Positions 6,377 to 24,593 of a DNA stretch of 44,120 bases are shown here, piece by piece; the stretch's first letter is position 1; each line of letters begins with the position of its first letter. The notes beneath the pieces were generated by a model that saw only the letters and a list, made by a program, of their open reading frames with translations, was not told the origin of the DNA and did not search any database. The translations under genes and the position numbers were made by a program. This DNA comes from Candidatus Poribacteria bacterium. Its GTDB lineage: Bacteria; Poribacteria; WGA-4E; PCPOR2b. The stretch lies in the NCBI GenBank assembly GCA_022822785.1, contig JAJEAL010000054.1, positions 1 through 44,120 on the forward strand, given 5' to 3'.

Positions 6377-7165
6377 TTATCCGTATCGTCCTTCGATGTA
6401 GTCCGCTGTTTTTGAGTTCTGGGGGGTTAGAAACAGATCTTCAGTGTGGCTATGTTCAATAATCTCGCCAAGCAGCATAAAGATACATTCATTGCTTACA
6501 CGACGCGCTTGTGCCATGTTGTGTGTAACAATTAGGATTGTGTATTGCCCTGCCAGCTCCAACATCAATTCTTCAACAGTTCGGGTGCCTTTAGCGTCAA
6601 GAGCAGAGCACGGCTCATCCATCAAAATTACTCGCGGTTTCAACGGCAGCAGCCGGGCGATGCACAATTTCTGTTGTTGTTCAAGTTGTAGGGTGGTTGC
6701 CTTGACCTTTAGTTGGTCTTTCAGATCATCCCACAGATGGACTTCCCTTAGCGCTGTCTCAACAATATTGTCGGTGTCCGATCTTTTCCGTATACGGCGT
6801 TCAGAGTGGACACGTAGACCGAAGATGATATTTTCGTAGACGGAAATTGGCAGTGGATTTGGGCGCTGAAACACCATGCCGACATTTTTTCGCAGCTCCG
6901 GTAGCGAGACGTCCGCATCGTAAATATTTTTACCAAGAATTTCTACCTCGCCGGTCGTCGTGACGTTTCCGTAGCGCTCGTTCACACGGTTGAAACAACG
7001 CAGCAAGGTGGTCTTACCGCATCCGGAGGGACCAATCAGCCCAGTTATTAAGCCATCGACAACCTTCACGCTTACATTAATCAAAGCCTGAAAGTCGCCG
7101 TACCATAGATTAAGCTGACGGGTTTCGACGCTGTAGCTTTTGCTCTGTTTTTTATCTGGGCTCAT
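6377..7165 (-). CDS. pstB: Phosphate ABC transporter ATPase, PstB-type (degenerate signature motif)
   Basis: 262 residues; its ATG overlaps the stop of the upstream pstB copy by four bases (ATGA). It is a PstB by its length and by V-F-Q-R-P-N-P-L-P and M-D-E-P-C-S-A-L-D. Walker A (GPSGCGKTT, 45-53), the Q-loop Gln100, Walker B (LMDE, 181-184), the D-loop (187-190) and the switch His215 are intact. The ABC signature is not: PstB proteins carry L-S-G-G-Q-Q-Q-R, while this one has L-Q-L-E-Q-Q-Q-K (159-166). The signature normally contacts ATP bound by the partner subunit, so this copy should not build a normal site on its partner. It most likely pairs with the second ATPase just upstream. Last gene of the phoU-pst operon. 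Confidence 0.9.
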   Translation of the reverse strand: MSPDKKQSKSYSVETRQLNLWYGDFQALINVSVKVVDGLITGLIGPSGCGKTTLLRCFNRVNERYGNVTTTGEVEILGKNIYDADVSLPELRKNVGMVFQRPNPLPISVYENIIFGLRVHSERRIRKRSDTDNIVETALREVHLWDDLKDQLKVKATTLQLEQQQKLCIARLLPLKPRVILMDEPCSALDAKGTRTVEELMLELAGQYTILIVTHNMAQARRVSNECIFMLLGEIIEHSHTEDLFLTPQNSKTADYIEGRYG

Positions 7166-7926
7166 CCAAAGGTTCCATTCACGTAGTCGTAAGTTAGTCT
7201 GCTCGCCGGTGTGTTGGAGAAGATGACATCGTTGTCGCCAATTTCTATTAATTTACTCTCAAATATGAAAGCGGTGCGGTCCGCCAAACGACGCGCCTGT
7301 TGGACCAAGTTGGTGACGAGAAGGATGGTAATCTCAGACCGTAATTCTTTGAGGATATCCTCAATTCGCATTGTTGTTACCGGATCAACGGCAATCGAAA
7401 ACTCGTCGAGGCAGAGGATTTCGGGCTGGTGTGATAGGGCCCGGGCAATGGTCAGGCGTTGCTGCTGTCCGCCCGACAGCTTCGTGCCAAGGCTATTAAG
7501 TCGGTCTTTAACCTCATCCCACAGTGCCGCTTGTTGCAGACAACGCTCAACAAGTTCATCTAACTCGCTCCGCTTACGAATGCCCGCAGTCCGAGGCGCG
7601 AAGGCAACATTATCGTAGATAGACATTGGCAGGCCGACCGGCAGCGGAAAAACCATCCCAATACGTCGGCGCAACTGATTGACGTTTTTAATCCTTTGTA
7701 CATCTAGACCATCGATTTTCACCGAACCGCTAACGTGCGCTGTCGGCTCAAATTCAATCGTGCGGTTGATAGTTTTCAACAGCGTTGTTTTGCCGGATTG
7801 CGCCGGCCCAATGATGCCCAGTATTTCATTCTCGTATACGTCGAAAGAAATCCCTTTGAGCGCCTCCATTGTCCCGTATCGGACAGCGAGATCGGTGATT
7901 TCAATTTTCTTTTTAGAATTATGCAT
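7162..7926 (-). CDS. pstB: Phosphate ABC transporter ATPase, PstB-like (degenerate Q-loop and switch His)
   Basis: 254 residues from the ATG at 7926; a GTG at 7932 is an alternative start. PstB-like over the full length, with M-S-I-Y-D-N-V-A-F and an intact signature L-S-G-G-Q-Q-Q-R (150-157). Walker A reads G-P-A-Q-S-G-K-T-T (40-48) and the Walker B Glu (175) is present. Other ATP-site residues differ from the family: the Q-loop Gln is Pro94 (V-F-P-L-P), the D-loop reads S-I-A-V-D instead of S-A-L-D, and the switch His is Asn206 (V-T-N-L-V). The changes are complementary to those of the neighbouring PstB. Sequence decay in a dying gene would hit both sites at random, and the open frame and translational coupling argue that the protein is used. 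Confidence 0.88.
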   Translation of the reverse strand: MHNSKKKIEITDLAVRYGTMEALKGISFDVYENEILGIIGPAQSGKTTLLKTINRTIEFEPTAHVSGSVKIDGLDVQRIKNVNQLRRRIGMVFPLPVGLPMSIYDNVAFAPRTAGIRKRSELDELVERCLQQAALWDEVKDRLNSLGTKLSGGQQQRLTIARALSHQPEILCLDEFSIAVDPVTTMRIEDILKELRSEITILLVTNLVQQARRLADRTAFIFESKLIEIGDNDVIFSNTPASRLTYDYVNGTFG

Positions 7927-7999
7927 CTTCACCCATGTCTTAGTTAGCTAAACAACCCGAAATCGGGTCTGAATCGCCACTGATTTTTAATCTTAGTGC

Positions 8000-8941
8000 C
8001 TACCACCGCTGTCGAGACCGCAAATACACACGCAACACAATTGCTAAGGCGTTTACCATCAGGACAGCCCCCAAAAGTACAACGGCTGTGCCGTACTCCA
8101 AAGCTTCAGGGACCCCCGGCACTTGCGTCGAAAGTTGGTACAGGTGCATTGAGAGTGCCATAAACCGATCGAGCAGGCCGTAGGCAAAAACGTCTCCTTC
8201 AGAAATAGCCTTAAAAAATACTGCGCCGGTAAACATAATTGGTGCAGTCTCACCTGCTGCCCGTGACACCTGTAAGATCACGCCGGTCAGTATACCGCTG
8301 ATTGAATTTGGTAGGACAATGCCCCGAATCGTTTGCCACCGTGTCGCGCCGGTGTTCCAACAGGCTTCCCGGAACGCCATCGGAACAGCGCCGAGCGCCT
8401 CCTTCGTGCTGGCGATGATAACCGGCAGGGTCATGATTGCCAACGTAAGCGAGGCAGCTAAAACCGAGCGCCCCATCCTTGCAAAATACACAAAAGCGCC
8501 CACACCAAAAAGCGCATGCACAATACTGGGCACCCCGGCGAGATTAACCACTGCAAGATTGATTATTCGGGTGAACCAGCTTTCGCGCGCGTATTCATTC
8601 AGATAGACCGCTGCTAACACTCCGATTGGTGCGGAAACAAGCAGCGAGATTATCACGATGTAAATCGTTCCAAGCAAGGGTGCCCATATCCCACCGGCTC
8701 TCATCCCTTTTGCAGGGTTTGAGAAAAAGAACTCGAGAGACAGAATCGGTGCTGCCTTGACAAAGAGATATACAACGATGAGAATTAGTGGCAAGATCAT
8801 CAACAGCGTCATCGCGAAGAAAACGCCGCGTGCAACGTTCTCTGTCAGCTGTCTTTTACGACTGTGCTTAGTTGCAGTGAACATCAATTCAGGTGAGACG
8901 ATTTTTGGCGAGGTGGGAGCGGGATTTATATCTGTTGCCAT
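8000..8941 (-). CDS. pstA: Phosphate ABC transporter permease PstA
   Basis: 313 residues, slightly longer than usual because of a cytoplasmic N-terminus of about 35 residues. A first membrane helix (F-F-A-M-T-L-L-M-I-L-P-L-I-L-I-V) is followed by the PstA-typical periplasmic stretch A-P-I-L-S-L-E-F-F-F. Further helices and the permease coupling loop with E-A-C-W-N-T-G-A-T-R-W-Q-T (the EAA-type loop that docks on the ATPase) follow. A late R-A-A-G-E-T-A-P-I-M-F-T-G matches the conserved PstA segment. It forms the inner-membrane channel with PstC, 19 bases downstream of it; 67 bases separate it from the next pstB. Confidence 0.95.
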   Translation of the reverse strand: MATDINPAPTSPKIVSPELMFTATKHSRKRQLTENVARGVFFAMTLLMILPLILIVVYLFVKAAPILSLEFFFSNPAKGMRAGGIWAPLLGTIYIVIISLLVSAPIGVLAAVYLNEYARESWFTRIINLAVVNLAGVPSIVHALFGVGAFVYFARMGRSVLAASLTLAIMTLPVIIASTKEALGAVPMAFREACWNTGATRWQTIRGIVLPNSISGILTGVILQVSRAAGETAPIMFTGAVFFKAISEGDVFAYGLLDRFMALSMHLYQLSTQVPGVPEALEYGTAVVLLGAVLMVNALAIVLRVYLRSRQRW

Positions 8942-8960: not shown

Positions 8961-9869
8961 TTATGCCTTTTCGCGAATGCCTTTAATCACAAGGTCAGTG
9001 ACAAAATTCACAATAAATGTAATTGAAAATAGCAAAACACCGATGATAAATAGTACTCGATAGTGGTCACTTCCCACCGCTGCTTCACCTAATTCGGCTG
9101 CAATCGTGGCGGTCAATGTGCGGACGGAATCGAACGGACTGGTCGGCATCTTCACCGCATGACCTGTTGTCATCAACACCGCCATCGTTTCACCTACTGC
9201 ACGGCCAACGCCCAACAACACCGCTGCGAGCAACCCATTCTTTGCTGTGGGCAACAACACACGATAAACTACCTGCCAGCGCGTTGCACCGAGCGCTTCA
9301 GCCGCTTCTCGATATGAATCCGGAACAGCCTTCAGAGCGTCTTCACCGATAGAAACGATAATGGGGACGCTCATCAGCGCTAGAATAATACCACCATTTA
9401 ACATCGTTAAGCCAATCGGTACGTTGAACAAATCTATAATCAGTGCATTCATCACCGTCAAGCCTATGAATCCCCACACGACAGACGGAATCGCCGCGAG
9501 TAATTCAATGACGATTTTGAGCGTCTCCTTCAGTTTCGGTCCACAAAATTCAGACACAAAGATAGCTGCCCCGAGCCCAAACGGCACAGCGAGAAACATC
9601 GCCAAAACCGTCACACTAAAGGTCCCTGCGATTAATGCCAATACACCGTAACGTTTGTTACTTACTGAAGTGGGGTACCATTCGGGGCTTGTGAGAAATT
9701 CAACGATGTCCAATCCCCCGAAGAAAAACCCCATCCCTTCGCGGAAGACAAAGAAAAATATGCCAAAGACGAAGATAATTGCGCTGATACCACACAGACG
9801 AATAATTCCTTCGATTACTGGCTCACCCCAACGGCCTAGTTGGTGAAAAATGTTAACGATTGTTCGCAT
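8961..9869 (-). CDS. pstC: Phosphate ABC transporter permease PstC
   Basis: 302 residues. Membrane helices alternate through the protein (for example S-A-I-I-F-V-F-G-I-F-F-F-V-F). The conserved PstC features W-Y-P-T, P-S-V-V-W-G-F-I-G and the coupling loop E-A-A-E-A-L-G-A-T-R-W-Q-V are all present. The late segment G-V-G-R-A-V-G-E-T-M-A-V-L-M corresponds to the charged, phosphate-contacting helix of PstC. It pairs with PstA in the inner membrane. The start ATG at 9869 has only a weak ribosome site, so coupling to pstS, 57 bases upstream, may matter. Confidence 0.95.
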   Translation of the reverse strand: MRTIVNIFHQLGRWGEPVIEGIIRLCGISAIIFVFGIFFFVFREGMGFFFGGLDIVEFLTSPEWYPTSVSNKRYGVLALIAGTFSVTVLAMFLAVPFGLGAAIFVSEFCGPKLKETLKIVIELLAAIPSVVWGFIGLTVMNALIIDLFNVPIGLTMLNGGIILALMSVPIIVSIGEDALKAVPDSYREAAEALGATRWQVVYRVLLPTAKNGLLAAVLLGVGRAVGETMAVLMTTGHAVKMPTSPFDSVRTLTATIAAELGEAAVGSDHYRVLFIIGVLLFSITFIVNFVTDLVIKGIREKA

Positions 9870-9926: not shown

Positions 9927-10835
9927 TCATTTCTGCCCGACTGGCACGTAACCCGTCTTCTCAACGATTGCCTGGCCCGCTGGCGAAAAGATCCAATCTA
10001 GGTAAGACTGTTCCTGCGGTTCTGGAGTTCCGAGCGAATACATATACAAGGGCCTTGCGATTGGATATGTACCATCAAGCACACCTTGGGCGGTGGGACC
10101 ATAGGCGAGATCACTAGTAGCCTGGGCTATTTTGAGCATTTTCACCTCTTCCGTAGCGTACCCCATACCGCTATAGCCAATGGCACACGGTGTATGTGCG
10201 ACAAGTTCGACAACATCCTTAGAGCCGTGTAGATCTCTTGAACCGAGTTTATAGTCGCGATTCTTACCGAGAATTGCTGCACGGAAATAAACGAATGTCC
10301 CGGAATTCGATTGTCGGCTCACCCGAATAATCTCGTCATTAGCACATTCGCTATTATCGATCCCCAGTTGAGACCATTTCGTTATGTTTCCACCTTCTCC
10401 GTAGATAGCAGCAAGTTGATCTATTGAGATTTCAGTCAGTGGGTTGTCCTTGTGGACGTATACAGCGAGCGCATCGTACCCAACGATGAACTCTTTCGGC
10501 GCTTCGCCGGTGTGCTCTATCACCCGTTCCCTTTCCTCTGGGGTCATTTGACGGCTACAGTTTGCGATGTCTACCGTGCCGCTGACTAGTGCAGCGATAC
10601 CAGTGCCTGAACCGCCACCGGAAACTTCAAGAGACACATCGGGCTGGACTGTCGCATACTCCTCTGCCCACGCCTGTGCGAGATTGACCATCGTATCAGA
10701 GCCCGCATTCTGAATCACGGACTTTGCCGCTGTGTTAGCCTCGCTCTCTTCGCCGGTCTCGTTCTTCTTTGTACATCCGTTTGAAAATAAACAGAGCCCT
10801 ATCGTAACCATAGCGCACAATACTTTATTAAACAT
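9927..10835 (-). CDS. pstS: Phosphate-binding lipoprotein PstS
   Basis: 302 residues from the ATG at 10835, which has AAGGAGAAGG just upstream; the longer frame to 10865 lies inside phoU. The signal peptide ends with F-S-N-G-C (Cys21), so the protein is probably anchored as a lipoprotein. Phosphate-contact segments are clear: A-G-S-D-T-M, G-G-G-S-G-T-G-I, S-R-Q-M-T-P-E-E and R-Q-S-N-S-G-T-F. It captures phosphate in the periplasm and delivers it to PstC/PstA. The start codon overlaps the phoU stop (ATGTTTAA), indicating translational coupling. Confidence 0.96.
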   Translation of the reverse strand: MFNKVLCAMVTIGLCLFSNGCTKKNETGEESEANTAAKSVIQNAGSDTMVNLAQAWAEEYATVQPDVSLEVSGGGSGTGIAALVSGTVDIANCSRQMTPEERERVIEHTGEAPKEFIVGYDALAVYVHKDNPLTEISIDQLAAIYGEGGNITKWSQLGIDNSECANDEIIRVSRQSNSGTFVYFRAAILGKNRDYKLGSRDLHGSKDVVELVAHTPCAIGYSGMGYATEEVKMLKIAQATSDLAYGPTAQGVLDGTYPIARPLYMYSLGTPEPQEQSYLDWIFSPAGQAIVEKTGYVPVGQK

Positions 10836-11955
10836 CAGTTTCCTTCTCCTTATCAATATCATCACCGAGAATTGCTTGAGTTAATTCTCGGAGGTGTGTG
10901 TCTAAGAATTCAAATGTTTTTTGGTACGCAGCTTGAACTGCCTTTTCAGTGTCTTCAATTTTTGATGGATCTTGCACTTCCCAACTGATGTGAACTGGCC
11001 TCGACGCTAGCGATGGGAGTGCTTTGTCGGCTGCCTCACAGAGCGAGACAATGATTGCATAATCTTCGAGATCTAAAATCTGACTTAAATATTTGGATGT
11101 CTGACCAGTAATATCAATCCCCTTCTCTGCCATGAATTCTACAGTTTGTGGATCCAGTGGTTGAGACGCCACGCCGGCACTACTGAAATGGATTCTTTGC
11201 GGTTCAAGCGTATTGCCGATACCGACTGCCATCTGCCCCCTGCAGGCATCATGCTCGGCGACACAAAGCACCCGCAATACCTGTTGATAGTCATGTCTGA
11301 GATCTTCACCGGTACACATATACAAGATTTCTTCACAAATATTGCTTGACTGATTCGCTACCCGTTCTAAGCAACTGACTATCGTCACGAGTGGCACCAA
11401 TGCCTCTGATGGCAGCTCACCATTGTTGTGCAATTGAATTAAGTCACTATGAATTTCATAGCGCAGATTATCTATCGCCCGTTCTTTTTCTTTTTGCCTT
11501 GTTGCCTTTGCCAATTCAGCATTACGGTCGGTAAAGGCTTGTAGTGCATTACGAAGAAAAGAGATTGCGAGGTTGGCAATGTCGGTAAGCTTGGGGTGGG
11601 ACGCATGTGCACCCAGATCAGTAACGGTCAAAAATCGCCGAGCAATGGATTTTGCATAATCACCGACGCGTTCCAATTCAGTGTTTATCTTGATGACCGA
11701 ATAAACGAAACGCATCTGGCCCGCGACTGGCAGGTGCTTAATCAGGAACCTTTGGCAAAGTGATTGTAGGTTGGCCTCTAACTCATCAATATACCGGTCC
11801 CTTAAAATCACAGCGTAAGCGAGTTGTCGGTTATTCTGCTCAATCGCACCCAGACAGGTCTCTAACGCTTGTTCAGCCAATGCGCCCATCCTAATTACCT
11901 CGCTGCGGATTAAATCGATGTCCTGCTGCATGTTTTCTTCTAAGTGAGATTGCAT
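10828..11955 (-). CDS. phoU: PhoU fused to a low-molecular-weight phosphatase/ArsC-like domain lacking its nucleophile
   Basis: 375 residues; PhoU alone is normally about 220-240. Residues 1-215 are PhoU: two three-helix repeats with the metal-binding motif E-R-V-G-D (96-100) in the first. In the second repeat the equivalent reads E-R-V-A-N (197-201), with Asp replaced by Asn. Residues 227-330 match the LMW-phosphatase/thioredoxin-linked arsenate reductase fold: a P-loop strand L-R-V-L, C-R-G-Q-M-A, S-S-A-G-V, D-I-T-G-Q-T-S-K and the W-E-V-Q-D-P loop with the general-acid Asp329. The expected nucleophile of the C-X5-R loop is Ala233 (A-E-H-D-A-C-R), so the domain should not be catalytic. It heads the pst operon, whereas phoU usually comes last. 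A regulatory phosphate or arsenate sensor is an inference. Confidence 0.9.
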   Translation of the reverse strand: MQSHLEENMQQDIDLIRSEVIRMGALAEQALETCLGAIEQNNRQLAYAVILRDRYIDELEANLQSLCQRFLIKHLPVAGQMRFVYSVIKINTELERVGDYAKSIARRFLTVTDLGAHASHPKLTDIANLAISFLRNALQAFTDRNAELAKATRQKEKERAIDNLRYEIHSDLIQLHNNGELPSEALVPLVTIVSCLERVANQSSNICEEILYMCTGEDLRHDYQQVLRVLCVAEHDACRGQMAVGIGNTLEPQRIHFSSAGVASQPLDPQTVEFMAEKGIDITGQTSKYLSQILDLEDYAIIVSLCEAADKALPSLASRPVHISWEVQDPSKIEDTEKAVQAAYQKTFEFLDTHLRELTQAILGDDIDKEKETDV

Positions 11956-12048: not shown

Positions 12049-13095
12049 CTAGAATCTAAAAAACGCCGTCAAACGTGGCATAACGGTTTCGTCAGGTTTA
12101 GTACCGTTATCCGGTTCATCGTAAAAAATGAAGACCAGATTGGGCATGACATGAAACGCTTCAGTTGGCGCCCAATCTAGCCCGATCAGAATCATATTCG
12201 GGGCTGCAGTTTCATCAAAAGGGATATAAGAAATTACCTTCGCATCGGGATTTGACTCAAACAGTCGATCAAATCGAGCGAAAGCCCATACCTTGTTCTT
12301 GACCAATTGCACTGCACCGAAGGCCGAGCCCACCAAAATATTGAGGTCGTCCTCGTTTTCCCGCTGCCGCGTCTGGTTGGCAAGCTGAACACCGAGTCGA
12401 AATTGCTCCCGTTGATAACCGAGAAAACCTTGTAATGTATACCATCTGCCCAAGTCCACCGCGTTTTCCAAATCAGCATATCCTTCAAGGATAACGCCCA
12501 TAACGGGCTTGGCTGCGAGCGAAAAGGCGATTTTCTTGTTCTTATCAATTTCCGCCTTTGTGCTCATGCCATTTGCAAATGTCAGATGATAGCTGACTAT
12601 CTTTGATTTATCGACATCGCCTTGTAACCCTATACCAAAGTCGGTGCTGCTTCCCATTTTCTGAAGGTCAATCACCGTTTTTGCAACAGAGCGGTAGCCC
12701 CATACCTTTTCAATATTCTTCCAAGTCGGTGTGCCAAGTAATCCCAAATAAATGTTTGTTCGCCACTTGGATTGCTTCCATCTCAGATAGCCGTTTTTGA
12801 GAAATGGTTCAAATTTCGCGCTTGTCTGACGGGCTGTGGGAAATGATGAGCTATTCATCTCCAGACGAAACCGTACAGAGACTGCTTCTGACAGATCTTT
12901 GTCGTAATCAAAGTAAACGCGTCGATACTGAAATCCATTCCGATTCTTAAGTCCAACCTCATGAGACTTTAACACATAGTAATAATCGCCAAAAAAGTAA
13001 CCGCTAATCCTACCTTCATCGGCCCTTGATATGGAAGCGCTGCTCAATAATAAATAGATAAAAAACAAAAAACCGTATCGAAAATATCTCTTCAT
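12049..13095 (-). CDS. Outer-membrane porin-like beta-barrel protein
   Basis: 348 residues from the ATG at 13095, with GGAGG seven bases upstream. A signal peptide (M-K-R-Y-F-R-Y-G then a hydrophobic run ending S-R-A-D) precedes alternating aromatic strands such as G-Y-F-F-G-D-Y-Y-Y-V and R-R-V-Y-F-D-Y-D. The chain ends in F-F-R-F, the terminal Phe typical of outer-membrane barrels inserted by BamA. The overall pattern resembles phosphate-selective (OprO/OprP) or carbohydrate porins, but no specific signature was recognised. Its place between tonB and phoU, and the TGTCACA repeats in front of it, make a role in phosphate passage across the outer membrane likely. Confidence 0.8.
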   Translation of the reverse strand: MKRYFRYGFLFFIYLLLSSASISRADEGRISGYFFGDYYYVLKSHEVGLKNRNGFQYRRVYFDYDKDLSEAVSVRFRLEMNSSSFPTARQTSAKFEPFLKNGYLRWKQSKWRTNIYLGLLGTPTWKNIEKVWGYRSVAKTVIDLQKMGSSTDFGIGLQGDVDKSKIVSYHLTFANGMSTKAEIDKNKKIAFSLAAKPVMGVILEGYADLENAVDLGRWYTLQGFLGYQREQFRLGVQLANQTRQRENEDDLNILVGSAFGAVQLVKNKVWAFARFDRLFESNPDAKVISYIPFDETAAPNMILIGLDWAPTEAFHVMPNLVFIFYDEPDNGTKPDETVMPRLTAFFRF

Positions 13096-13165
13096 AAGAC
13101 CTCCGTTCGATAACATGTTTGTGCAACGCCATTCTGGTAAGTTGCTTAATGTCGCTCAACCTAAA

Positions 13166-19372: not shown

Positions 19373-20803
19373 TTATCCTTCCATAAACTTGCGCCAGGGA
19401 CCTGTGATAGCGAGTGTCATTCCAGCCCCTTGGATGTTGACAAACAGCGTGCTGCCATCCGGCGAGAACGTTGCACCGGCGAACTCCGACCTGTTGCGTG
19501 AGTTCTTGCCAAATCTGTAAAGTTGACCTTGGGGGGTTACACCCACAAGAAACTGCGTTCCTGGACCGTCCTCGCACAAGATGAGATCTCCCCACGGCGC
19601 AACTGTCACATTGTCACCGTTTTCTAAGAGATCGCTGTCGTTGGGTTCAATAAAGAGTTCAAGTGCTCCCGGTTGCTTATCTTCAGCGGCTGTCCCCTCA
19701 AACGGACTAGGAATATAACGCCAGACTTGTCCTTTCTTCCGGTAACCGCCGTTTGTGCAGACAAAGTAAATAGTATTGTCGCTATACCACATCCCCTCGC
19801 CTCGGGCAAATCTCGCTGCACCTTTCTCGAAACCCTGCAGACGCAGGTCGTCTTTGGGCGATTCAACGTTCTGAATATCAACCCACGCAGCCGCTATCTT
19901 TTGACCAACCGGAACCGTATCATAGGTCCAGGGGAAAATTTTATCTGTCCACTCTTTCCAATTTCGGGTGTCGGTACTTTTCATATCCCGGATTACCATC
20001 GCCTGAAGCCGTCCACCTTGTGCAAGCTTGCCGGGGACGTCCGGAATGAAGCGGTAAATCAGGCTATCGTGGCGATCTTCGGTCTGATATACGATTCCGC
20101 TCTTTGGGTCTACAGCGACAGCCTCATGGTTGAATCGCCCCATTGCTTTCAGCGGTATCGGTGTTGCTAAACCGATGCTAGCGGAGGCGGGCACTTCAAA
20201 ATTGTAACCGTGGTCTTTTTCGTAAGTGTCCTTTGCGAGCTGAACGCTTTCCTCACAGGATATCCAGGTGTTCCAAGGCGTTGCACCACCGGCGCAATTC
20301 CGGAGGGTGCCCATTAAACTCATGGAGTGGCTTTCCAATGTTTGGCTCTGCGTATTGTAGACAAGTGTTGTGGTACCACCAAGTCCCGGTTTCACCCCTT
20401 TTCCTGGATCGTACATCTTTTCGGGATCGACTTCTCGATATCTCTTGTCGTGTGCAAATGACTGAGCGTCCTTTGGCCCTATATTTAGTTCGTGGTTTCG
20501 GATTAGAACTGTCTTCCCATTGGGTCCGGGAAAAGCTGCCATGCCATCGTGTGCGCCGGGGACGAGGAATCCGTCGTTCATACGCTCTCCGACGGTAGAG
20601 AATGCGTGGTACGTAAAACCTTCAGGAAGATCGAGAATGCCGTAGGGATCTGGTAGGAAATCGCCATACCGATTGGCTGTCGGGGGTTGGGGAGCAGATT
20701 CAGTCAACAACCGGCTACAGCCGGAAAAACCGAGCGCAATCGCTCCTGAAGCAGTTGCCATTGCGGTAGAATGTAAAAAATTACGGCGGGATATTTTGTT
20801 CAT
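19373..20803 (-). CDS. phoX: PhoX-type alkaline phosphatase (Tat-exported)
   Basis: 476 residues. The N-terminus has a twin-arginine signal, S-R-R-N-F-L-H, with a hydrophobic stretch ending in G-F-S-G-C, so it is exported folded by Tat and possibly lipidated at Cys29. The PhoX hallmark N-C-A-G-G-A-T-P-W-N-T-W-I-S-C-E-E is intact; in characterised PhoX this Cys helps hold the iron of the active site. Other conserved segments are R-N-H-E-L-N, F-N-H-E-A-V-A-V-D and Y-Q-T-E-D-R-H-D-S-L-I-Y. PhoX cleaves phosphate from extracellular organophosphates using iron and calcium. It lies between a second PhoX-like gene and the TonB-dependent receptor. Confidence 0.92.
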   Translation of the reverse strand: MNKISRRNFLHSTAMATASGAIALGFSGCSRLLTESAPQPPTANRYGDFLPDPYGILDLPEGFTYHAFSTVGERMNDGFLVPGAHDGMAAFPGPNGKTVLIRNHELNIGPKDAQSFAHDKRYREVDPEKMYDPGKGVKPGLGGTTTLVYNTQSQTLESHSMSLMGTLRNCAGGATPWNTWISCEESVQLAKDTYEKDHGYNFEVPASASIGLATPIPLKAMGRFNHEAVAVDPKSGIVYQTEDRHDSLIYRFIPDVPGKLAQGGRLQAMVIRDMKSTDTRNWKEWTDKIFPWTYDTVPVGQKIAAAWVDIQNVESPKDDLRLQGFEKGAARFARGEGMWYSDNTIYFVCTNGGYRKKGQVWRYIPSPFEGTAAEDKQPGALELFIEPNDSDLLENGDNVTVAPWGDLILCEDGPGTQFLVGVTPQGQLYRFGKNSRNRSEFAGATFSPDGSTLFVNIQGAGMTLAITGPWRKFMEG

Positions 20804-20873
20804 AGTTGCACCTATGTAAAAAATTCAATAATTACTATTCTGTATCTATTTTTTACTATAAAAATATTTAGAT

Positions 20874-20910
20874 TGTAGGCATCAATCGTGAAAAATGACT
20901 GATGCCTACA
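20874..20910. repeat. Hairpin between the two PhoX-type genes
   Basis: TGTAGGCATCAATC (20874-20887) pairs with GACTGATGCCTACA (20897-20910) except one wobble; the loop has nine bases. On the minus strand an interrupted T-rich run follows, so it may act as a weak terminator or 3'-end stabiliser of the upstream transcript. Confidence 0.7.
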
Positions 20911-20926
20911 CCTTAGCGTTTTAGTT

Positions 20927-23356
20927 CTATTTCAGAATAACTAGCTTGCGGTTTGCGATATAATCCCCCGCAATGAGTTGGTAGAAATATACGCCACTTG
21001 CCATATGCTCACCGAGATTATTCCGACCATCCCAATAAGCAGCTCGGGATTTATCCAGATAATAGCCCGCGGCTTGGAACCCGAGGTCCATGTTACGAAC
21101 TAAATTGCCGGTCGTATCATAGATGCGGATTTGGACGTTTGCACTTTTTGCCAACTGATAGGGCAACCATGTTTCGGGGTTGAATGGGTTGGGATAGTTG
21201 GTGAACAACATGGTTTGGGTGGGACGTAACGATTCCGGTGTCAGATGCAGCTGAACAAATGCACGACGAATATCTTCTGTTGAGATCTCGTGGTTTAACG
21301 TGCCTACCACCTGTCCTATTTCGTCTTGAATTTGAATCTCTAGCACATCACCGACCTTGACCACCGAGCGACGGGTCAAGTCCGCCCAAATTGCATGGGA
21401 ATTACCGGACGAAGCGGTAGCAGCCATTGTTTCAATGCTATTCGTACGCGGATTATGTACACTTACGGTCATATTTCCTATATCCGCGGTATTCGCAGCA
21501 ACGACAAACGCCCAAGCACTGGCCTGTGTTTCTGGTGATGGTGCAGCAGCTATAGCTGGCGTATTGCGCCATGCACCGCCGACATACGTTACAATCCTTG
21601 CCTGCGGCGTATTGACGATGTAGCCCATACCGCCTTCTATAGGAAAGCCATCGCCGGAGTCAGCAGCGGTGAAACCGACAAAACGGCGATCCTTTGCTTC
21701 CAGCTGAATAATCGTTGTGGCACCAATCTCGTGCATGAAAGATCGTGCCGTATGCGGACGAGACGGCTTAAGGGGTAAGCTAATCATGTTTAAGCCTGCT
21801 TCCAACTCTTGGAAGAAAACGTTGTTTGTTGCATTTACTATCAGCCCGGCTGCGGCACTATCGGGATTGAACAACGCCAGCAGCTGCCCGTACTCCACCA
21901 ATTCTGGATCTTCATGTCTAGCGTGAGCTTGTGCATTAAGCAAGAACCAACCCGGCCCCAGAATATCCCAAGCATCAATAATGCCGGAAGATTCTTCGTT
22001 CGTAGTGAACGGAGGAACAGGATCTGCGCTGATATCACCGAACCGCCCGGGATCATGTTGAGCGATGATTTTGAGTGTGTCGGACGGAATGTTATATTGC
22101 CAGATTTTCGCTGTGCGAGGTGCACGCCCTGGATCTTCTTGGATTAGGACGTTACCGAAGCGATCGATGGTCATGTTGTCAAACATGACACCAGCAGTGC
22201 CATCGGTCATCCGGTCTACCTGACCGCCAAGGGTCGGTTCACTCGCATCGTCGAAGCGAAGACGATATAAACGGGAGCGTCCAATCACCGTGCCAATAGC
22301 ATCTTGCGTTTCATCGAAACGATCTGTTGTAACGAAGTAGAAATCATTTGGACGATTGGGGTCCCAAGCGCCATCCTCTGGACGGAGAAATAAGGTAACC
22401 CCCGCATCGCTACTTTCCATTTCAAGTGTTTCGCCGGTCATGTTGGTTACATTACCGAAGCCGTGAAGAGTGAACCGGGTTCCGGTGGGAATACCCGCTT
22501 CTCGCATTTCTTCCGGTATTCCATCAACCCTAATACCGTACAGTCTACCATTTGTTAAACCGGCTTTGTCAATGGTGCTGCCTTCGTTCTTTTTAGTGCC
22601 AACATAAACGTAGAGTTGTCCGGGTCTGGAATCATCAAGACCAATAACAACTGTGTTGTCTCCAGTATTCGGATGGGCGACTGAGTTTTCCCACGCGAAT
22701 CGTCCTAGATGTGGTAATTGGTAGCTGATACCAGCTTCAGTACCATCAATCACGTGTGCAAACCCGCGTCCTTCGCCATACTCTTCACCGTTCATATAAA
22801 TCCGCCCGTGATGTCCCCGGCCGGTAACCGGATTATAGAAGGCTGTGATAAGAGGAAGGTCTGCCGAGCAGAGACGGTTGAGCACAGCGCCCTTGGCCGG
22901 CGGATCAAAGCTGTTTGTCTCAGGATTCCATAATACTATTTGCTGAATTAAGTCTTCACCGCTCTGAACCGCGAGAATGCTTGGTGAGCTACCCGTAAAA
23001 CCATTGATAATCCATTTAGAGACAAAGGCTCCTCCGGAATCGGTACTGTGTGCACGTGGCACACCTTGGGAATTTCGGAGCTCATGATTAACAAGCCAAG
23101 TAAAGGTGCCATCCCCATTATTGAAGGCGCCCGTACCGTCAGGAATACCGACAAGGCGATAGCCGCCAAAATCATCACCTACCGTGGCGATTGACCATGT
23201 AATAACGCCTGGTGCCACCGGCACAATATAGGGTGAATCGGAACTGCTGACCCCCGTGATGGTTTGTCCAAACGCTGAACCGTAACCAAGGATCATTAAA
23301 GCAACTGATGCGGAAAGGAAGTGCAGCCATCTATGCTGCGCTTTTCTATTAAACAT
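20927..23356 (-). CDS. PhoX-like (DUF839) secreted phosphatase with FlgD/Por-type C-terminal domain
   Basis: 809 residues with a signal peptide ending around G-S-A-F-G-Q. Residues about 40-480 are the DUF839/PhoX fold of the second subgroup, marked by L-C-S-A-D-L, M-N-G-E-E-Y-G-E-G-R and W-E-N-S-V-A-H-P. A middle domain of about 200 residues (N-M-I-S-L-P-L-K-P to the beta-rich region) was not recognised. The last 85 residues are an FlgD-Ig/T9SS-type domain with N-Y-P-N-P-F-N-P-E-T, I-R-I-Y-D-T-T-G, G-V-Y-F-Y-Q-L and a final V-I-L-K. Such tails mark secreted or surface-attached proteins. It is probably a surface-exposed phosphatase. The assigned phosphatase activity is inferred from the fold. 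Confidence 0.85.
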   Translation of the reverse strand: MFNRKAQHRWLHFLSASVALMILGYGSAFGQTITGVSSSDSPYIVPVAPGVITWSIATVGDDFGGYRLVGIPDGTGAFNNGDGTFTWLVNHELRNSQGVPRAHSTDSGGAFVSKWIINGFTGSSPSILAVQSGEDLIQQIVLWNPETNSFDPPAKGAVLNRLCSADLPLITAFYNPVTGRGHHGRIYMNGEEYGEGRGFAHVIDGTEAGISYQLPHLGRFAWENSVAHPNTGDNTVVIGLDDSRPGQLYVYVGTKKNEGSTIDKAGLTNGRLYGIRVDGIPEEMREAGIPTGTRFTLHGFGNVTNMTGETLEMESSDAGVTLFLRPEDGAWDPNRPNDFYFVTTDRFDETQDAIGTVIGRSRLYRLRFDDASEPTLGGQVDRMTDGTAGVMFDNMTIDRFGNVLIQEDPGRAPRTAKIWQYNIPSDTLKIIAQHDPGRFGDISADPVPPFTTNEESSGIIDAWDILGPGWFLLNAQAHARHEDPELVEYGQLLALFNPDSAAAGLIVNATNNVFFQELEAGLNMISLPLKPSRPHTARSFMHEIGATTIIQLEAKDRRFVGFTAADSGDGFPIEGGMGYIVNTPQARIVTYVGGAWRNTPAIAAAPSPETQASAWAFVVAANTADIGNMTVSVHNPRTNSIETMAATASSGNSHAIWADLTRRSVVKVGDVLEIQIQDEIGQVVGTLNHEISTEDIRRAFVQLHLTPESLRPTQTMLFTNYPNPFNPETWLPYQLAKSANVQIRIYDTTGNLVRNMDLGFQAAGYYLDKSRAAYWDGRNNLGEHMASGVYFYQLIAGDYIANRKLVILK

Positions 23357-23806: not shown

Positions 23807-24493
23807 TCACTCCTTCAGCCGATAGCCGACCCCGTGCACTGTTTCAATCCGTTCCCCGAACTGTTTCAGTTTACGCCGTAACCGACTTACATGCGTATCC
23901 ATCGTGCGTTCAATGCCGTAGTACTCTTGCCCCCACACTGCATCCATCAGAATACTACGCGTGAATACCCGCCCCGGGGAGTGAGCAAATAGAGAAAGGA
24001 TTTTGAACTCGGTAGCCGTCAGATCGATTACATGTCCCTCGCTGAACACTTGGTGTCTATCTAAATCAATTTTTAAGCCATCAATCTGAATTTGATTTGC
24101 AGGTTTATTGCTCGGAGTGCTTGGTGCACGACGCAGCACAGCACGGATTCTTAAAATGACCTCTCGCGGACTAAAGGGTTTGGTGATGTAGTCGTCTGCA
24201 CCCAGTTCCAACCCAACAATTCGGTCTATCGCTTCGCCTTTTGCTGTTAGCATGATTATGGGAATATTTGCGGTTTCAGGATCGCGTTTCAACGTGCGGC
24301 AGATTTCCAAGCCATCCACCTCCGGAAGCAGTAAATCTAAGAGAACGAGATCCGGCTGCTGAATCTTGGCAGATTCAAAGGCTTCCGCTCCATTAAAGAC
24401 CGCTTCGGTTTTATAGCCCGCTTGATCCAAGTTGTACACTAACAGTTCGACAATATCGGGCTCATCTTCCACAATCAGAATCTTTGTTGCCAT
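23807..24493 (-). CDS. phoB: PhoB-type response regulator
   Basis: 228 residues from the ATG at 24493, with AAGGAAA before it. The receiver domain has the acidic pocket E9-D10, phosphoacceptor Asp53 (L-V-L-L-D-L-L-L-P) and the T-A-K block near 95-97. The C-terminal OmpR/PhoB winged helix shows L-T-A-T-E-F-K-I-L, R-S-I-L-M-D-A-V-W-G and T-M-D-T-H-V-S-R-L-R-R-K-L. PhoB-type regulators activate phosphate-starvation genes. A matching promoter lies in its own upstream region, suggesting autoregulation. The cognate PhoR-type kinase is not next to it, which is unusual for phoB. Confidence 0.9.
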   Translation of the reverse strand: MATKILIVEDEPDIVELLVYNLDQAGYKTEAVFNGAEAFESAKIQQPDLVLLDLLLPEVDGLEICRTLKRDPETANIPIIMLTAKGEAIDRIVGLELGADDYITKPFSPREVILRIRAVLRRAPSTPSNKPANQIQIDGLKIDLDRHQVFSEGHVIDLTATEFKILSLFAHSPGRVFTRSILMDAVWGQEYYGIERTMDTHVSRLRRKLKQFGERIETVHGVGYRLKE

Positions 24494-24593
24494 TTTCCTT
24501 CTCACAAATGTTATAAATTCTGCCTGCACGAGCAGAATCGGAACAAAAGGTTAAACATCGTTGCTGACTGAATTCGACATATACTCCAGTTAC

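Follow-up and report, generated by a model that had tools for sequence, protein, structure and literature searches.

Organisation of the locus

The window (the whole stretch of DNA analysed, 44,120 nucleotides) carries a phosphate-uptake operon on the minus strand. The gene order is porin, fusion phoU, pstS, pstC, pstA, pstB_a and pstB_b (Table 1), with the two pstB genes overlapping by four bases. The fusion of PhoU to an LMW-phosphatase/ArsC-like domain proposed in the preliminary description is borne out by Pfam and NCBIfam, and the coordinates given there (10828-11955) are correct. Two PhoX-type phosphatase genes (19373-23356, minus strand) lie between the pst operon and phoB, making up a phosphate-starvation gene cluster. 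A Pho box search of the whole window returned one weak match, against 3.5 expected.

Table 1. Coordinates of the pst locus and of the parts of the fusion gene
Feature	Position	Strand	Basis
Gene for an outer-membrane porin-like protein, immediately upstream of the fusion gene	12049..13116	minus	Weak Porin_O_P match; conserved in genus
Fusion phoU, PhoU plus pseudo-arsenate-reductase (pseudo-ArsC) domain, 375 aa	10828..11955	minus	Pfam, NCBIfam, genus-wide comparison
PhoU part, residues 1-221, two PhoU repeats	11293..11955	minus	Pfam PF01895 in two stretches; phoU_full above cut-off
Second PhoU metal motif E197-R-V-A-N201, Asp replaced by Asn	11353..11367	minus	Sequence
Pseudo-ArsC domain, residues 226-366	10858..11280	minus	LMWPc, 2l17 match, Foldseek, dN/dS
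P-loop A233-E-H-D-A-C-R239, replacing C-x5-R	11239..11259	minus	Sequence, alignments
Asp329 at the general-acid position (D329-P330)	10969..10971	minus	Asp in 30/36 clade members
pstS, ATG at 10835, 8-base overlap with the stop of the fusion gene	9927..10835	minus	TIGR02136 above cut-off
pstC	8961..9869	minus	TIGR02138, 284.5 bits, cut-off 196.45
pstA	8000..8941	minus	TIGR00974, 257.6 bits, cut-off 193.45
pstB_a, with LSGGQQQR but without the Q-loop Gln and the H-switch His (VTN)	7162..7932	minus	Motif reading; TIGR00972, 278.5 vs 343.2
pstB_b, Walker A, Q-loop, Walker B and His kept, signature LQLEQQQK	6377..7165	minus	Motif reading; TIGR00972, 319.5 vs 343.2
phoB-like response regulator, no adjacent kinase	23807..24529	minus	Profile match, neighbourhood

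Description of the fusion protein

Bidomain protein, classified by score as a PhoU, as a variant. The Pfam search finds PhoU in two copies (E 2.5e-33), and phoU_full (TIGR02135) is passed with 145.9 bits (cut-off 130.25). The first metal motif, ELERVGD, is intact, its E and D occurring in 36/36 clade members. The second E-x-x-x-D is altered; across the clade its last residue is Asp in 30/36 and Asn in 6/36, so that the loss is partial. With other PhoU proteins (TIGR02135, PF01895; structures 1t72 and 4q25) it shares the two repeats, the intact first motif, the above-threshold score and a place in a pst operon. It differs from them in its C-terminal pseudo-ArsC domain, in being the first and not the last gene of the pst operon, and, in this genus, in the sequence ERVAN.

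The C-terminal domain matches LMWPc at residues 229-358 (E 2.2e-9; PF01451, 38.1 bits, cut-off 23.2). It scores 70.8 bits (E 1.2e-19) with arsC_pI258 (TIGR02691), far under the cut-off of 174.3. Arsenate reductases are found on comparison with solved structures (ArsC of 2l17, E 6.3e-15) and fill all top 20 places of a Foldseek search made with a low-confidence model of the tail. The nearest kin are Trx-type arsenate reductases, not LMW-PTPs. With Trx-type ArsC (TIGR02691; 1jl3, 1ljl) and 2l17 the domain shares the fold family (sequence, Foldseek) and the motifs F-S-S-A-G, G-I-D-I and W...D-P; unlike them it is fused to PhoU and has an acidic P-loop, no nucleophilic Cys and no second relay Cys. 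The AlphaFold models of the full-length protein (pLDDT 66, C-terminal part mostly <50) and of the domain alone (pLDDT 45) are both too poor for judgement of the P-loop; the domain model allows no surface to be mapped and served solely to assign the fold class.

The residues named in the preliminary description (the loop A-E-H-D-A-C-R, Ala233, Arg239, Asp329 and E-R-V-A-N) were all verified in the sequence. When strand 1 and the P-loop are aligned, which takes no gaps, Ala233 falls exactly on the nucleophilic Cys of ArsC. Family membership and the general-acid Asp of a catalytic ArsC or LMW phosphatase are present; the C-x5-R nucleophile is absent. ALP stands where ArsC has CP, so that the second cysteine of the catalytic relay is missing. 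Cys306 varies among congeners, and a set of thiol-relay cysteines is not found.

Distribution and variation of the Cys-less domain

Sampling covered two phyla, Poribacteria and Verrucomicrobiota, and plasmid records. The fusion occurs in 6/6 genomes of this Poribacteria genus (82-84% identity), with the loop A-E-[HY]-D-A-C-R in all. Among 85 genomes of the phylum Poribacteria, none other than these shows a PhoU-pseudo-ArsC fusion. In Verrucomicrobiota the first finds were two Verrucomicrobiales records, from a scan of genome contigs; sampling around both raised the number to at least 33 genomes. One class has the fusion in 28/384 genomes, and a second class contributes five intact fusions and a broken one. 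Plasmid records yielded ordinary PhoU proteins alone, each covering less than 80% of the fusion protein.

In the domain tree the Cys-less fused domains form a single clade (support 100/100). At the nucleophile position, 36 aligned clade members have Asp (30), Ala (3, Poribacteria), Glu (2) or Gly (1) and never Cys, which is also absent there in the other three congeners of the Poribacteria genus. A local mutation, named beforehand as the reading that would undo the observation, is ruled out by this count. C-x5-R is intact in 18/18 out-of-clade sequences from the same phyla (14 free ArsC, 4 other PhoU fusions). The Cys is kept by no fusion within the clade; PhoU-ArsC fusions that arose separately do keep it.

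In the domain tree these Cys-keeping fusions branch at two or three points within the free ArsC; PhoU and ArsC have therefore been fused several times. Their operons hold one canonical PstB, with the fusion downstream of it. Four of them (L052, L053, L054, L055) have the same domain order as the window's protein and differ from it by separate origins, a canonical C-x5-R and a position as last gene of a one-PstB pst operon. Two loci (L086:1672-2457, L088:9346-10131) have a separate 261-aa ArsC-like gene just ahead of pstS, and a Cys-keeping PhoU-ArsC fusion after pstB.

The clade loop is acidic at position 1 in 32/36 members and at position 2 (Glu or Asp) in 26/36, with Asn at position 4 (27/36) and Cys at position 6 (26/36). 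The general-acid Asp is present in 30/36; the P-loop Arg is retained in 20/36 and gone in 16/36. A Cys-to-Ala change was weighed as founding event; Asp dominates the clade, and the Poribacteria loop lies two residues away from the commonest loop, D-E-H-N-A-C-R. In the domain tree, however, Poribacteria may branch first, and separate Cys-to-Ala and Cys-to-Asp events are possible.

Comparison within the genus gives a dN/dS of 0.098-0.104 for the pseudo-ArsC domain and of 0.097 for the PhoU part. The domain is under purifying selection and is not decaying, since its value of about 0.10 equals that of PhoU. Among seven-residue windows the P-loop ranks 6th of 133 for conservation in catalytic ArsC and 85th of 133 in the first seven fusion lineages; in a larger fusion set it is average (47/135). 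Because of this fall in rank, the oxyanion site is no longer among the most constrained parts; it is still constrained, because an acid is favoured at the old thiol position. Most conserved in the 36-member set are the helix following the P-loop and the core strands. A C-terminal L-x-x-A-x-x-G (L358, A361, G364) is present in all seven fusion lineages first compared and absent from catalytic ArsC. Loss of arsenate-reductase chemistry with retention of a function of the domain is held with high confidence.

Twin PstB ATPases

PstB of E. coli is treated as a homodimer. The two PstB proteins of the window, aligned to a solved PstB structure (9k3x), share its sequence family and operon position but differ from it in being a pair of unlike subunits whose motif losses complement each other, both scoring under the TIGR00972 cut-off. 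No PstB of this genome passes that cut-off; 13/14 control genomes have one that does. The complementary split of motifs recurs in 36/36 twin loci of two phyla, among them 29/29 fusion operons, with the PstB_b signature LQLEQQQK, once LQLDQQQK. In a head-to-tail dimer all losses map to one composite ATP site (36/36 twin loci), predicting a PstB_a-PstB_b heterodimer with one degenerate ATP site. Heterodimeric ABC exporters of the TM287/288 type have a degenerate site (reviewed in PMC7756269), and the combination of one consensus and one degenerate composite site is likewise predicted for the Pst pair; unlike those exporters, the Pst system is an importer with PstS and PstC/PstA, and its heterodimer is a predicted one. 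In L202 and L212 the Walker A of PstB_a reads GPAQSAKTS, a further degeneration of the same ATP site.

The fusion heads the pst operon, as the preliminary description had it: the order PhoU-PstS-PstC-PstA-PstBa-PstBb, PhoU being the fusion, was read in 29/29 fusion operons (5 Poribacteria, 24 Verrucomicrobiota). The idea that twin PstB goes strictly with the fusion was dropped, since some operons with twin PstB have a canonical PhoU, or none, instead. Seven twin-PstB loci are without the fusion, and for this reason the pseudo-ArsC domain is dispensable for the twin-PstB transporter. In the transporter tree the Poribacteria twins join the fusion operons from the two phyla in one supported group, and Verrucomicrobiota twins with canonical PhoU fall outside it. 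A shared origin, combined with losses or transfer, would fit this grouping.

In three loci of one Poribacteria family, f3 (L148, L150, L156), a second PstA-like gene comes after the twin pst operon, and then a third PstB-like ATPase and a canonical PhoU. The third ATPase has an altered Q-loop and H-switch (ATNKRRQ or VTNKRRQ). In genome G011 a twin pst operon is present and no PhoU was found; beside the operon (L149:4593-6530) a free ArsC with intact Cys adjoins a PhoR-like kinase gene and a porin.

Probable kinase partner

The fusion had been proposed to stand in for PhoR-linked sensing, there being no phoR near phoB. The absence of phoR is true within the window; the substitution is not supported. 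A HAMP-HisKA-HATPase kinase that comes closest to PnpS/PhoR is encoded on another contig of the genome, with both scores under the cut-offs (PnpS 380.8 bits vs 400; PhoR 302.6 vs 334.2). In two Verrucomicrobiota loci (L041, L194) the fusion is immediately preceded by phoB and phoR. From these kinase genes it follows that the fusion protein most likely works alongside a PhoR-type kinase and not in its place. The sole other PhoU match of the genome lies within a 596-residue frame, probably of the Na/Pi cotransporter type. PhoU of E. coli is in contact with both PstB and PhoR, and opposite signals come from PstB mutants predicted to be locked in one or the other conformation (PMC4423584, PMC5775613).

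Proposed role

The fusion protein is proposed to be a PhoU with a pseudo-arsenate-reductase docking domain serving an asymmetric Pst transporter; as a whole this explanation is held slightly above even. The transporter would run on one consensus ATP site, built from Walker A, Q, Walker B and His of PstB_b and the LSGGQ of PstB_a, the other site being degenerate. The fusion protein would bind the asymmetric PstB pair and signal the conformation of the pair to a PhoR-type kinase, in the way proposed for E. coli. Its ArsC domain would have ceased to act as an enzyme and would now serve as an accessory module for structure or docking. This module, whose former active site is acidic, would help to keep PhoU attached to the kinase or to one face of the PstB pair, and would not bind phosphate. 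By analogy, action on the asymmetric pair as in E. coli, with the pseudo-ArsC domain adding a contact, would be the most economical reading, the added contact being inferred. For docking as the role of the domain the chances are judged equal. The favoured Asp, Asn and Cys of the P-loop and the general-acid Asp suggest that the pocket itself keeps a role, which counts against docking. So does the occurrence of the twin-PstB transporter without the fusion.

Conversion of the P-loop from an anion hole to a cation site is unlikely. A divalent metal would be held by the new Asp (here by Glu234/Asp236) and Asp329, its state being coupled to PhoU, which is a metal protein too. The acids at position 1 (32/36), position 2 (26/36) and the general-acid position (30/36) agree with such a site, as does the metal binding of E. 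coli PhoU, reported at second hand in PMC4423584. Against it, position 1 is Ala in this Poribacteria genus, the predicted structures are of low quality, and no metal-binding relative of the ArsC fold was found in this analysis.

The preliminary description suggested that the dead P-loop may bind phosphate or arsenate without catalysis and report the filling of the site to PhoU. This is now judged improbable. Arg239 and Asp329 are kept in the genus, the loop varies among its six genomes only by H/Y, and the gene lies in a pst operon. The genus loop carries two acids, however, and in the clade the nucleophile is Asp in 30/36, position 2 is acidic in 26/36, Arg is lost in 16/36 and loop conservation drops from rank 6/133 in catalytic ArsC to 85/133 among seven fusion lineages. 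Oxyanion binding is therefore disfavoured in a loop that is acidic and often without Arg. In Poribacteria, which keep Arg239, weak binding may be possible.

A passive remnant, merely aiding the folding or dimerisation of PhoU, is more doubtful still. The peak of conservation in the post-P-loop helix and core strands is what fold maintenance would give, but the constraint equals that of PhoU (dN/dS 0.10), the domain is kept across two phyla, and canonical PhoU functions elsewhere without it. An assembly or sequencing artefact, conceivable in that the named source records are metagenome assemblies and two copies (L010, L112) look damaged, is refuted by the same architecture in independent assemblies from six species of the genus and more than 30 of another phylum. 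In L051/L112 (G139) the fusion gene passes, after its P-loop, into pstA/pstB sequence, a deletion or misassembly.

Significance

Neither a Cys-less PhoU-ArsC fusion nor a complementary twin PstB was found described in the open-access literature. Tentatively, and with the balance somewhat against it, Poribacteria and Verrucomicrobiota may share a distinct phosphate uptake-signalling module. It would consist of a Pst importer driven by a PstB heterodimer, obligate and with one of its ATP sites dead, and of a PhoU that reads it out through a non-catalytic, acidic reader or docking domain, an ArsC converted mostly by Cys-to-Asp.

It is still an open question by what means PhoU registers the state of the Pst transporter and signals this state to PhoR. 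In the present system symmetry is broken on both sides, by unequal PstB subunits and by the pseudo-enzyme added to PhoU. Should the heterodimer prove real, its ATP sites could be mutated singly, which is impossible in a homodimer, and the model of PstB conformation as the signal would therefore become testable. The fusion also offers a clear example of an arsenate reductase that was drawn into phosphate signalling and afterwards lost its chemistry.
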